A stretch of DNA of 6,296 nucleotides, taken from contig SLMR01000201.1 of NCBI GenBank assembly GCA_007133445.1, forward strand, positions 1 through 6,296, written 5' to 3'. Under the pieces are notes generated by a model that ran no database searches, was not told the origin of the DNA, and saw only the letters and a program-made list of their open reading frames with translations. The translations under genes and the position numbers were made by a program. The DNA comes from Aquisalimonas sp. (GTDB lineage Bacteria > Pseudomonadota > Gammaproteobacteria > Nitrococcales > Aquisalimonadaceae). Below, in pieces: positions 2,708 to 5,984 of this stretch. The first letter of the stretch is position 1. Each line of letters starts with the position of its first letter.

Positions 2708-3850
2708 TCAGGCGCGGTATTCGCGGATCAGCTCCACGAAGTGCGCGAACAGTGGGCGCACGTCGTGCGGCCCGGGGCTGGCCTCGGGGTGTCCCTGGAA
2801 GCTGAACGCCGGCTTGTCGGTGCGGTGAATCCCCTGCAGGGAGCCATCGAAGAGGGAGCGCTGAGTGGCCCGCACGTTCGCCGGCAGGCTCTCCTCGTCC
2901 ACGGCGAAACCGTGGTTCTGACTGGAGATCATCACGCGCCCGGTGTCCAGGTCCTGGACCGGGTGGTTGGCGCCGTGGTGGCCGAACTTCATCTTCACCG
3001 AGCGGGCACCGCTGGCAAGACCCAGCAGCTGGTGCCCCAGGCAGATGCCGAAACTCGGCACGCCGGCGTCCACCAGCGTGCGGATGGCCTCGATGGCGTA
3101 GTCGCACGGCTCCGGATCCCCGGGCCCGTTGGAGAAGAAAACGCCGTCCGGGTCCATGGCCAGCACGTCGGCAGCCGGCGTTTTCGCCGGTACCACGGTG
3201 ACCCGGCAGCCGTGATCCACCAGCATGCGGAGAATGTTGCGCTTGATACCGTAGTCGTAGGCCACCACGTGCCAGGGCAAGTCGGCATCGGTGCGGTCCG
3301 GGGCATCGGCCCGCCCCAGCGGCAGGGACCAGGAGCCCTGACGCCATTCGTAGGGCTCCGTCGTGGAGGCGCCGGCAGCCAGATCCATGCCCTTGAGGCC
3401 CGGAAAATCCCGCGCCGCCGCCACGGCCTGCTCCGGGTTCACCTCGCCGGCCATGATGCAGCCATCCTGGGCACCCTTCTCGCGGAGGATCCGGGTGAGC
3501 TTGCGGGTGTCGATCCCGGCAATGGCCACCACGTTGCGGCTCTCGAGATAGGCCCCCAGGTCCTCGGCATTGCGCCAGCTGCTGGAACGCAGGGGCAGGT
3601 CGCGGATGATCAGCCCGGCGAGCTTGGGGCCGTCCGCCTCTTCGTCCACCGGGTTGGTGCCGGTGTTGCCAATGTGCGGGTAAGTGAGCGTGACCAGCTG
3701 TCGGCTGTAGGAGGGGTCGGTACAGATTTCCTGATACCCCGTCATGGCGGTGTTGAACACCACCTCGCCGGCGCTGACACCATCGGCGCCGATGGCCTCG
3801 CCGTGAAACAGGGTCCCATCCTCGAGTGCAAGAATTGCTGGCCTGCTCAA
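2708..3850 (-). CDS. carA: Carbamoyl-phosphate synthase small subunit (glutamine amidotransferase)
   Basis: The product hydrolyses glutamine and channels ammonia to CarB. It is 380 residues long when started at the TTG at 3848-3850, close to the 382 of E. coli CarA. The N-terminal CPSase small-chain domain shows [16 protein letters not shown], then [20 protein letters not shown] and [16 protein letters not shown]. The class I glutaminase domain starts near residue 194 and carries the triad Cys270 (in [15 protein letters not shown]), His354 and Glu356 (in [13 protein letters not shown]). The TTG start is chosen because AGGAG at 3859-3863 lies 8 nt upstream and the resulting [13 protein letters not shown] matches the family N-terminus. 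The longer in-frame reading from 3907 adds 19 residues unlike CarA. The start codon overlaps the stop of a small leader ORF as TTGA, which would allow translational coupling. Expression is probably controlled by the promoter and attenuator-like hairpin upstream. Confidence 0.97.
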
Positions 3851-3927
3851 CTGCGCATCTCCTGACTGTACCGGTGACCGCGGCGGGGACGGATCACGTG
3901 CGCGCAAAAACGGGAGGAATCAACCAC
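3847..3927 (-). CDS. Candidate 26-residue leader peptide of carAB
   Basis: This short ORF starts at GTG (3925-3927) and ends in TGA at 3847-3849, which overlaps the carA TTG start as TTGA. A strong ribosome binding sequence, GGGAGGAG at 3932-3939, sits upstream; its GGAGG core is 6 nt from the GTG. Both the binding sequence and the start codon lie inside the terminator hairpin, in the 5' arm and loop. The peptide has six arginines in 26 residues, including a PRR stretch at residues 14-16, which fits a gene supplying arginine precursors but is also expected from GC-rich DNA. A ribosome starting here would disrupt the terminator and could reinitiate at carA. The frame is open upstream as far as 4062, but that longer reading overlaps the divergent gene's start and has no comparable support. 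No homologue is recognised. Confidence 0.35.
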
Positions 3928-3947
3928 GTGACTCCTCCCGTCTCCAT
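3894..3947 (-). CDS. Alternative 17-residue leader ORF spanning the attenuator
   Basis: An ATG at 3945-3947 opens a 17-codon ORF ([17 protein letters not shown]) ending at TGA 3894-3896. It begins just before the terminator stem and ends 10 nt past the U-tract. This resembles the topology of pyrBI-type attenuation, where a ribosome closely following RNA polymerase prevents the terminator from forming. The ribosome binding site is weak (AGAATCG directly upstream). It overlaps the 26-residue ORF in another frame, so at most one of them is likely to be the main leader peptide. Confidence 0.25.
3906..3940 (-). terminator. Intrinsic terminator hairpin in the carA leader (probable attenuator)
   Basis: Read on the minus strand, CGGGAGGAGTCA (3940 to 3929) pairs with TGATTCCTCCCG (3922 to 3911). 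This gives a 12-bp stem with one G-U pair and a six-base loop, CGTGGT. Five T's follow directly (3910-3906), which is the form of a Rho-independent terminator. It lies about 33 nt after the predicted carAB transcription start and 56 nt before the carA TTG. The gene upstream is divergent, so the only minus-strand transcript it could stop is the carAB leader, which points to attenuation. The 5' arm contains a GGGAGGAG ribosome binding sequence and the loop contains a GTG codon, so translation and termination would be mutually exclusive. Attenuation as a function is inferred; the stem and U-tract are seen directly. Confidence 0.7.
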
Positions 3948-3980: not shown

Positions 3981-4009
3981 ATTTTACGGACCGCACCCGG
4001 CACTGTCCA
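3981..4009 (-). promoter_or_regulatory. Predicted sigma70 promoter of carAB
   Basis: On the minus strand a -35 hexamer TGGACA (4004-4009; 5 of 6 consensus bases) is followed by a 17-bp spacer and a -10 hexamer TAAAAT (3981-3986; 5 of 6). Spacing and hexamers are both near ideal. Transcription would begin around 3973, giving a carA leader of about 120 nt. I saw no convincing ArgR or PurR operator by eye. The start site is inferred from spacing only. Confidence 0.7.
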
Positions 4010-4496: not shown

Positions 4497-4518
4497 GGTG
4501 CATCAAGATGCACCCTAC
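4497..4518 (+). repeat. Left terminal inverted repeat of the palindromic array
   Basis: These 22 bases are the exact reverse complement of 4800-4821. They consist of the 18-nt palindromic core (8-bp arms around AA) plus CTAC. The match stops on both sides, and no flanking target-site duplication was visible. The repeat begins 17 nt after the VOC gene's stop codon. Confidence 0.85.
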
Positions 4519-4799
4519 CGACTCCGGAGATCGGCCAGCGCGGTGACGGCGTGGATGTCGGTGTATCAGGTGCGCCGTGCGGCACCAGGCGCCGAGAGGC
4601 GGCGCGCCGACGATGCGGATCGGTACATCGAGATGCACCCTACCGACTCCGGGGCTCGGCCGGCATGGTGACGGCGTGCTTGTCGGTGCATGAAGGTGCG
4701 CCGTGTGGCACCGGGTTCGGCCGGCGCGGTGACGGGGTGGGGTTGTTGGTGTATCAATATGCGCCGCACGGTGCCGTGACTGCGGCGCTTTGCCGATGC

Positions 4800-4821
4800 G
4801 TAGGGTGCATCTTGATGCACC
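4800..4821 (-). repeat. Right terminal inverted repeat of the palindromic array
   Basis: This is the perfect 22-bp inverted partner of 4497-4518 and the only array unit in the opposite orientation, as shown by GTAG preceding rather than CTAC following its core. It ends 19 nt before the stop codon of the minus-strand reductase. Confidence 0.85.
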
Positions 4822-4840
4822 GACACAACACCGGACCGGC

Positions 4841-5984
4841 TCACGGCGCGATTTGCAGGGGCGGCTGGTGGCGCTGGAAGAACCAGCGGTTGAGAACCAG
4901 GTGGCGCGCGAACCAGCGCGAGGCCAACAGTCTGCCGGCGATGGCGCGTTTCACACTGGACGGAACCACGGCCCTGTTGACGCCGGGATCACGCCCGTCG
5001 CGGCGCCCGAAGCGTTGTTCCAGTCGGTCCACGTACGGCTGCAGCTGGTCCTTGCCGAAACCGTTCCGGCAGCCGCTCACCACCTCCGCTGCCAGCAACG
5101 CCGACTCGATCGCCGGCCGGATGCCTTCGCCGCTGCGGGGATAAGCCAGCCCAGCGGCATCACCCAGCAGTAGCACCCCGTCGTCGACGATCCGCCGCGG
5201 CGTTTCGCCGTGAAGCAGGTAGGCGTGCCCCTGGAAGCGCTCCGGGACCGGAGCCGGCAGTTTGCCGCTCGCCGTCAGCCACGCGATGAACGCATCCAGG
5301 TGGTGGCCGAGGCGGTGCGTGTCCTGGCGACCCAGCCCGATATTGAGCCAGTCGCCCTTGCGGAACACCCAGCCGTAGCCCTTGAGATCCTCGCAGAAGA
5401 AGAGTTCCGGCACATCCGCGCGAATGCCGCAGGCGCGAGCCTGCTCCCGGGGCATCTCGAACTCCACTTCCTTGGCGGCAACGGCCGCCTCCCCGCTACC
5501 AGGGCGCGCCCCCAGGTGCCTGGCCACCGGGCAGAAATGGCCGCCGGCACCGATCACGAGGGGGGGTACGGATGCGATGGTTCACCACCCACTTGCCGTC
5601 GTCGTCACGGCGCATGTCCGCGAACGGCTCGCCCGGGAACAGGCGGGCGCCGCTGCGCCCGAGCAGGTAGTCGTCGAACTCGCACCGGCGGATGCCATAG
5701 CTGACCGGCTCGCCATACTGCACATCCGCCTCCCGGCGCCCCATCATGCTGACGCGGAATCCGTGCAGTGGCTGCAGGGTGCGTTCCCGGGCGTAGTCCG
5801 CCAGGTCCAGCTCCAGGGCGTTCACCACCGCCGGCGTGATCCAGCCGGCGCAGACCTTGTCGCGCGGGAAGGCCTGCTTGTCCAGCACGGCCACGTCCAT
5901 GCCGCTGCGGCGCAAGGCCCTGGCACAGGTGGACCCGGCGGGGCCACCGCCGATGACGAGGGCATCGGTATCCACGATACTCAC
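4841..5984 (-). pseudogene. Geranylgeranyl-reductase-family FAD oxidoreductase, frameshifted
   Basis: This is a FAD-dependent oxidoreductase of the geranylgeranyl reductase / para-hydroxybenzoate hydroxylase-like group. Members typically reduce isoprenoid or acyl C=C bonds, or hydroxylate. The N-terminal part, from GTG at 5982-5984, has the dinucleotide motif ALVIGGGPAGSTCARAL and then FPRDKVCAGWITP. The C-terminal part has VIGAGGHFCPVARHLG, KGYGWVFRKGDWLNIGLGR and the second FAD motif LLLGDAAGLAYPRSGEGI. The parts lie in different frames. The join is at a run of seven G (seven C on the coding strand) at 5560-5566; removing one base gives an uninterrupted 380-residue protein, a normal family length. 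As written, the first frame reads off into unrelated residues and stops at 5496-5498. GGGAG at 5993-5997 is a suitable ribosome binding site. The start overlaps the methyltransferase stop by 4 nt (GTGA), implying coupled translation. Sequencing error, recent mutation and phase variation all remain possible. Confidence 0.88.
5560..5566. repeat. Seven-base G homopolymer at the reductase frameshift
   Basis: The run of seven G on the plus strand (C on the coding strand) is exactly where the two reductase frames must be joined. Six bases would give T-P-L-V-I-G-A-G-G in a continuous frame. Such tracts are prone both to slippage in vivo and to length errors in sequencing. Confidence 0.9.

Follow-up and report, generated by a model that had tools for sequence, protein, structure and literature searches.

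A conserved, attenuator-like terminator hairpin in the carA leader of Aquisalimonas and other Gammaproteobacteria

carAB supplies both arginine and pyrimidine synthesis, and a hairpin in the leader of carA raises the question whether transcription is decided there by termination and, if so, what does the sensing. We analysed a 6,296-nt stretch of Aquisalimonas sp. DNA (contig SLMR01000201.1; the whole stretch is called the window below), in which carA, for the small subunit of carbamoyl phosphate synthase, occupies 2708..3850 on the minus strand (P0001; TIGR01368, 465.6 bits), with the start codon TTG at 3850-3848 and the Shine-Dalgarno (SD) sequence AGGAG at 3862-3858. Upstream on the same strand, at 3981..4009, lies a sigma-70-like promoter, TGGACA-17-TAAAAT, with 10 of 12 consensus matches and a predicted transcription start at about 3974, 32 nt before the stem. 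The promoter scan counted one promoter-like site on the minus strand in the interval upstream of carA, with a predicted start. The hairpin, also on the minus strand, consists of a 5' arm ACGGGAGGAGUCA (3929..3941) that holds both the SD-like GGGAGGAG (3939-3932) and a conserved core CGGGA, a loop CGUGGU (3923..3928) that includes GTG at 3927-3925, and a 3' arm UGAUUCCUCCCGU (3910..3922) that is pyrimidine-rich beside the U-tract. Positions 3940-3929 pair with 3922-3911 in 12 pairs, one of them G-U, and A3941-U3910 adds a thirteenth; this U is the first of the five in the U-tract (3906..3910), which is kept in relatives and is followed by an alternating purine-pyrimidine tract GCGCGCACG (3897..3905). 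The fold has a free energy of -26.6 kcal/mol (z = -6.4), and none of 200 shuffles is as stable; in the predicted fold of the window, a long-range helix surrounds the terminator. The original prediction had described a 12-bp stem, a six-base loop and five U's between a near-consensus promoter and carA, with an SD in the 5' arm and a loop GTG opening a frame that ends on the carA start, and the letters of the window bear out every one of these features. A simple terminator scan missed the hairpin, its sole hit being a different minus-strand site at 4072-4054, and an Rfam search extended to E = 1 matched no family around the hairpin, none reaching the gathering score.

The hairpin is conserved among near relatives in stem and U-tract alike. 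The closest CarA found, that of G149, shares 94% identity; among named loci, those of Methylonatrum and an Ectothiorhodospiraceae bacterium come nearest. All 23 genomes of the G001 family carry carA, and in 22 of them CGGGAGG-(5 to 20)-CCTCCCGTTTT is matched exactly a single time, always just upstream of carA; the reversed control of this pattern occurs in none of the 23. For the order of G001 (the order, below), 48 carA upstream regions were compared after two with partial carA (G148 and G157) were left out. The covariance model R1 matches 43 of the 48 at E ≤ 1e-3 and model R2, trained on sequences from outside the order, matches 43 at E ≤ 0.01. Among the five missed at E ≤ 0.01, L205 and L210 still have a shorter GGGAGGG hairpin (R1 E = 0.09), and L081, L198 and L199 have no carA-leader hairpin by either test; L212 is matched some 265 nt upstream of its carA start. 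The Methylonatrum-like group (L001/L081, L198 and L199) is without a terminator upstream of carA, and L001 and L198 have a GACGGGGACTTC..GAAGCCC-like hairpin, with no U-tract, at the terminator's place. The leader start CACTTCGCG, or a sequence near it, just 3' of the -10 (window 3980-3960), is kept among the nearest relatives, L190-L195.

The element reaches well beyond the order. Of 185 genomes searched in the class, 140 had a CarA match, and from these 100 were fetched, most similar first, with 38 left out and G001 and G170 already included. In 65 of 110 relatives (10 from the order and 100 from the class sample), a simple rule detects a terminator-like hairpin no more than 200 nt upstream of carA; applied to dinucleotide shuffles, the same rule gave 2 hairpins in 550. 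R1 matches 67 of the 100 class upstreams at E ≤ 1e-3; 40 of the 67 are training sequences, and among untrained upstreams the count is 27 of 58. Even at E ≤ 0.01, 26 of the 100 lack the element by R1. Of 80 named loci, 18 give an R1 match of at least 20 bits on the sense strand, and none of these 18 is from Vibrio, Photobacterium, enterobacteria, Aeromonas or Shewanella. In the G003 family (116 genomes), a cognate pattern GCGAGG..CCTCGCTTTTT is found in 67 genomes, judging by coordinates at carA in 61 and only elsewhere in 6, and its reversed control matches 3 of the 116. The U-tract match is three or less in 8 of 96 aligned hairpins. We found no description of a class-wide carA-leader element in the literature, which is weak evidence of absence given that subscription literature fell mostly outside the search. 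In many leaders of the G003 family (L009, L120, L125, L133 and others), transcription would start near GTTTGCC right after the -10. In E. coli, the initial sequence GUUUGC of carAP1 is the place of UTP-dependent slippage; by analogy, the GTTTGCC leader start may be a second possible pyrimidine-sensing point in the G003 family.

The stem is backed by strong covariation. R1, whose training sequences include the window, scores it at 39.1 bits, and R2, trained on 49 sequences none of which is from the order, still scores it at 34.3 bits (E = 4.4e-8); together the two models set the extent of the conserved element at 3895..3945 (minus strand). In an alignment of 64 sequences (A1), 90% of the cells pair and changes on both sides of a pair number 147, against 37 in shuffled alignments; sliding A1 out of register leaves about half the pairing. 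Without the order, pairing is 90.8% and both-side changes are 122 versus 35 shuffled. The original prediction had suggested such a comparison of related carA upstreams for covariation in the stem. The outer pairs are also conserved in sequence (e.g., C-G in 61 of 64 and G-C in 63 of 64), and the inner pairs exchange types. Conserved features of the element are its outer stem CGGGA/UCCCG with a 3' arm rich in pyrimidines, the U-tract and the alternating tract that follows. The class-wide core is CGGGA, not GGAGG, with the variants CGGGAUGG, CGGGAAUG and CGGGACG. The last eight bases of the 3' arm are 84% pyrimidine, as against 62% in 65 other terminators, a bias whose P value is inflated by this small background and by the relatedness of the sequences. 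Across the 96 aligned hairpins, the tract 3' of the U-tract has the consensus GYRYGYRYG, with successive fractions of R 0.79, Y 0.93, R 0.86, Y 0.68, R 0.79 and Y 0.92. Its T-G-Y-G start resembles the consensus pause of RNA polymerase, and its distance would put the RNA end within the usual termination zone.

It should be said that the model score by itself is partly that of a generic terminator. Run through 54 whole genomes, R2 matched many further sites. Leaving carA aside, the 12 with the highest scores all stand downstream of a same-strand open reading frame (ORF): the gap from its end is 15-143 nt, no more than 60 nt in 9 cases and 116-143 nt at L337, L339 and L341. The flanking ORFs typed at L334, L337, L339 and L341 include transporter subunits, a thiolase, an exonuclease III and an aminotransferase (L339 gave no family), with no pyrimidine gene among them. 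The case is carried by position and covariation.

A counterpart tied by experiment to pyrimidine control is known in Pseudomonas. The passages of PMC4997734 on the carA leader of P. syringae DC3000 describe P32, an RNA transcribed from a single promoter, with its 3' end right after a terminator and co-transcribed with carA. There, uracil lowers expression of the full-length leader fusion, and breaking or removing the stem gives higher expression; arginine raised the fusions, and qRT-PCR showed the P32 and carA transcripts unaltered by arginine plus uracil (PMC4997734). For P. aeruginosa, loss of the stem-loop abolished the pyrimidine response (Kwon et al. 1994, as cited in PMC4997734), and carA attenuation had been predicted in another P. 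syringae strain (cited in PMC4997734). The window shares the arrangement of P32, a terminator hairpin between a single promoter-like site and carA, as well as the anatomy of a GC stem with a U-tract. It differs in belonging to another order and in its letters: the Pseudomonas stem, as represented by the Rfam P31 consensus only, is GCGGGG..CCGC followed by U6 and GCAACCU, not CGGGAGG. Rfam P31 (RF01676, Pseudomonas sRNA P31) is filed on the strand opposite to the carA leader; when reverse-complemented, it reads as the carA-leader stem, U6, GCAACCU and an SD-like ACGGGAGGU. It matches L033 (2435-2501) and L066 (2435-2501) on the minus strand at 27-28 bits, below its gathering score of 40, with no match in the window or the other loci scanned. 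On this reading of its consensus, P31 may be the carA leader filed on the wrong strand; it looks like the carA-leader element seen from the opposite strand. On the sequence comparisons, the element is homologous across Gammaproteobacteria, the link to Pseudomonas running through Rfam P31 and the carA passages of PMC4997734 rather than through a named Pseudomonas locus.

The window hairpin thus joins the Pseudomonas-type carA leader as an attenuator-like terminator. Nor is the layout, which the original prediction set apart from the classic pyrBI and amino-acid leader schemes, of a new kind: for Pseudomonas, a terminator that separates one promoter from carA had already been published. We consider it likely that the element is an intrinsic terminator acting as an attenuator, with pyrimidine control by homology to P32; judged from sequence, the terminator probably attenuates carAB. 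Termination in vivo at the window's copy and the sign of the control we infer by analogy. Some transcripts from the upstream promoter would end just past the hairpin, giving a short RNA (about 65-70 nt), and carAB mRNA would come from the read-through transcripts alone. By homology with P32, plentiful pyrimidines would increase termination and scarce pyrimidines would decrease it. Sensing would then take place at RNA polymerase or the nascent hairpin, not via a ribosome sitting in the stem, either through a factor that reads the conserved CGGGA/UCCCG stem and its flank or through pausing that depends on nucleotides, at the 3' arm with its many pyrimidines and at the tract that follows the U-tract.

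Alternatively, the hairpin could be an unregulated partial terminator that sets a constant low level of carAB. The window itself shows no regulation and some relatives lack the element, as this explanation would allow; nevertheless, the outer stem is conserved at the sequence level and the P. syringae leader fusion responds to uracil in the experiments of PMC4997734, so that we regard it as unlikely.

Somewhat less probable than this is control of the hairpin by UMP-bound PyrR. Of the order's 54 genomes, 53 have PyrR, and in 39 genomes of named loci (element at R1 ≥ 20 bits) both occur in 12, the element only in 2, PyrR only in 6 and neither in 19. However, the corresponding counts in the class sample are 62, 5, 26 and 7, an association short of significance (P = 0.057, Fisher's exact test, ignoring kinship), and the element occurs with no PyrR match in Halomonas L065, in L049 and in five class genomes (element at E ≤ 1e-3), some of these genomes being possibly incomplete. 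PyrR is therefore not present with every copy of the element. The RADxVGKN stretch, which matters for RNA in PyrR, reads RADxVGKN in the solved PyrRs but AADVVGTR in G149. Furthermore, none of 10 pyrR upstreams carries the element. A pyr regulon sharing it was considered and rejected on this count, on the uniqueness of the pattern per genome in 22 of 23, and on the 12 top R2 sites away from carA, which trail ORF ends and, at the four typed, have no pyrimidine gene beside them. Gram-positive PyrR-binding attenuators likewise achieve pyrimidine control by termination, but the carA-leader element differs from them in that no antiterminator pairing was found. The 40 nt upstream show no excess complementarity to the 5' arm (mean z = +0.17) or to the 3' arm (mean z = +0.08), and, in contrast to his/trp-type amino-acid attenuators, no upstream antiterminator alternative was found. 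The predicted transcription start lies a median of 36 nt from the stem (103 leaders), a short distance that leaves little room for an antiterminator. The carA SD region is complementary to the 3' arm to some degree (mean z = -0.70; 16 of 104 below -2), as is expected because SDs are purine-rich.

The E. coli pyrBI leader also places a pyrimidine-responsive terminator ahead of a pyrimidine gene. By this scheme, a leader peptide would be translated across the hairpin, and at low UTP a slow polymerase would let the ribosome melt it. The window does have an ATG ORF (3894..3947, minus strand) that crosses the stem and U-tract, and a leader peptide was reported for P. aeruginosa (Kwon et al. 1994, cited in PMC4997734), whereas the carA passages of the same source state that no start codon was found for a leader peptide in P. 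syringae DC3000. By eye, no clear SD precedes this ORF of the window. In 104 non-redundant hairpins (from 190, window included), we counted leader ORFs that begin no more than 40 nt upstream and run on without a stop through the U-tract, and found 25 with ATG, against a null of 29.8, and 62 with ATG, GTG or TTG, against 68.5. In 23 of 103 leaders, the predicted transcription start is 20 nt or less from the stem. The leader peptide was accordingly rejected as a shared feature, such ORFs being slightly fewer than in shuffles although the window has one; its own ORF is judged incidental. With no conserved leader peptide found, the carA-leader element departs from the pyrBI attenuator, and we consider a mechanism of that type improbable.

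The reading with which the original prediction started has fared still worse. It held that a ribosome bound at GGGAGGAG, with its start at the loop GTG, blocks terminator folding, so that untranslated leaders terminate. In the window, the SD and the GTG are well spaced, and the GTG opens an ORF of 26 codons (3847..3927, minus strand) whose TGA (3849-3847) overlaps the carA TTG; the nearest relative, L190, keeps the SD and the GTG, and GGAGG lies inside the many CGGGAGG stems of the order. In spite of this, an SD in the 5' arm followed 3-10 nt on by ATG, GTG or TTG is found in 13 of the 104 hairpins, where shuffles predict 14.6 ± 3.2, and an SD pentamer is present in just 53 of the 104 5' arms. 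For the 45 hairpins of the order, counting the window's, a start codon of any kind 2-11 nt past the SD is present in 14; in 4 (the window, L190, L105 and L213), an ORF opened by a start behind the SD runs to a stop at the carA start. The GTG together with the carA-coupled ORF is shared, among the order loci, by L190 only, in which the interval differs by 6 nt, and the loop GTG is lost in L191-L193, whose CarA is 87-91% identical. These chance-level counts, the loss of the GTG and a class-wide core of CGGGA leave the ribosome without support as a gate, and we hold this mechanism to be very improbable. The SD-start pair in the stem was rejected as a functional feature, the ribosome binding site being what chance gives in a purine-rich arm, and the GTG ORF is judged incidental. 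The comparison that the original prediction had suggested, for conservation of GGAGG and GTG across carA upstreams, found the GTG not conserved and a class-wide core other than GGAGG. What survives of the proposed translation-gated attenuator is the conserved leader terminator, which probably attenuates carAB; what is lost is its translational gate.

That the two arms form a DNA palindrome could point to an operator for a regulator instead of an RNA element, but this is hardly credible, as arm spacing varies (matched lengths 29-35 in the G001 family), the U-tract is kept on one side only, and partner bases change together with pairing retained.

Attenuation through the terminator stays the preferred explanation. 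It is conceivable, though we would not yet favor it, that the element represents a widespread translation-independent pyrimidine attenuator of Gammaproteobacteria, in which the polymerase or a factor would read CGGGA/UCCCG, the 3' arm and GYRYGYRYG with no leader peptide, antiterminator or ribosome. If true, this would be a compact kind of attenuation outside the pyrBI, PyrR and riboswitch models. Outside the enterobacterial and Vibrio groups, the sensing of pyrimidines at carA has been described as attenuation for Pseudomonas, and the account of PMC4997734 settles on no sensor. By the present comparison, the element seems to extend far past Pseudomonas, with constraint on its sequence and not on its fold alone, and the usual partners, a leader peptide and an antiterminator, leave no trace despite this wide sequence-level conservation. 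It thereby narrows the sensor question to one testable in vitro with polymerase, nucleotides and candidate factors. Another RNA element immediately upstream of carA, the carA motif (SRC-12-1) of beta-proteobacteria, mostly from Polynucleobacter, is an extended imperfect hairpin beside the ribosome binding site and was proposed to be a riboswitch acting on translation (PMC8632094). It shares with the window element its place upstream of carA, and a terminator role is not described for it in the section of PMC8632094 on this motif.

Elsewhere in the window, a repeat cluster at 4497-4825, between a glyoxalase-like gene and a reductase, contains direct repeats of 70 nt together with perfect inverted copies, 22 nt long, of GGTGCATCAAGATGCACCCTAC. 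A geranylgeranyl-reductase-like gene at 4841-5984 on the minus strand is split over two frames near a G run at about 5560; both halves match TIGR02032, which suggests either a frameshift or a sequencing error.
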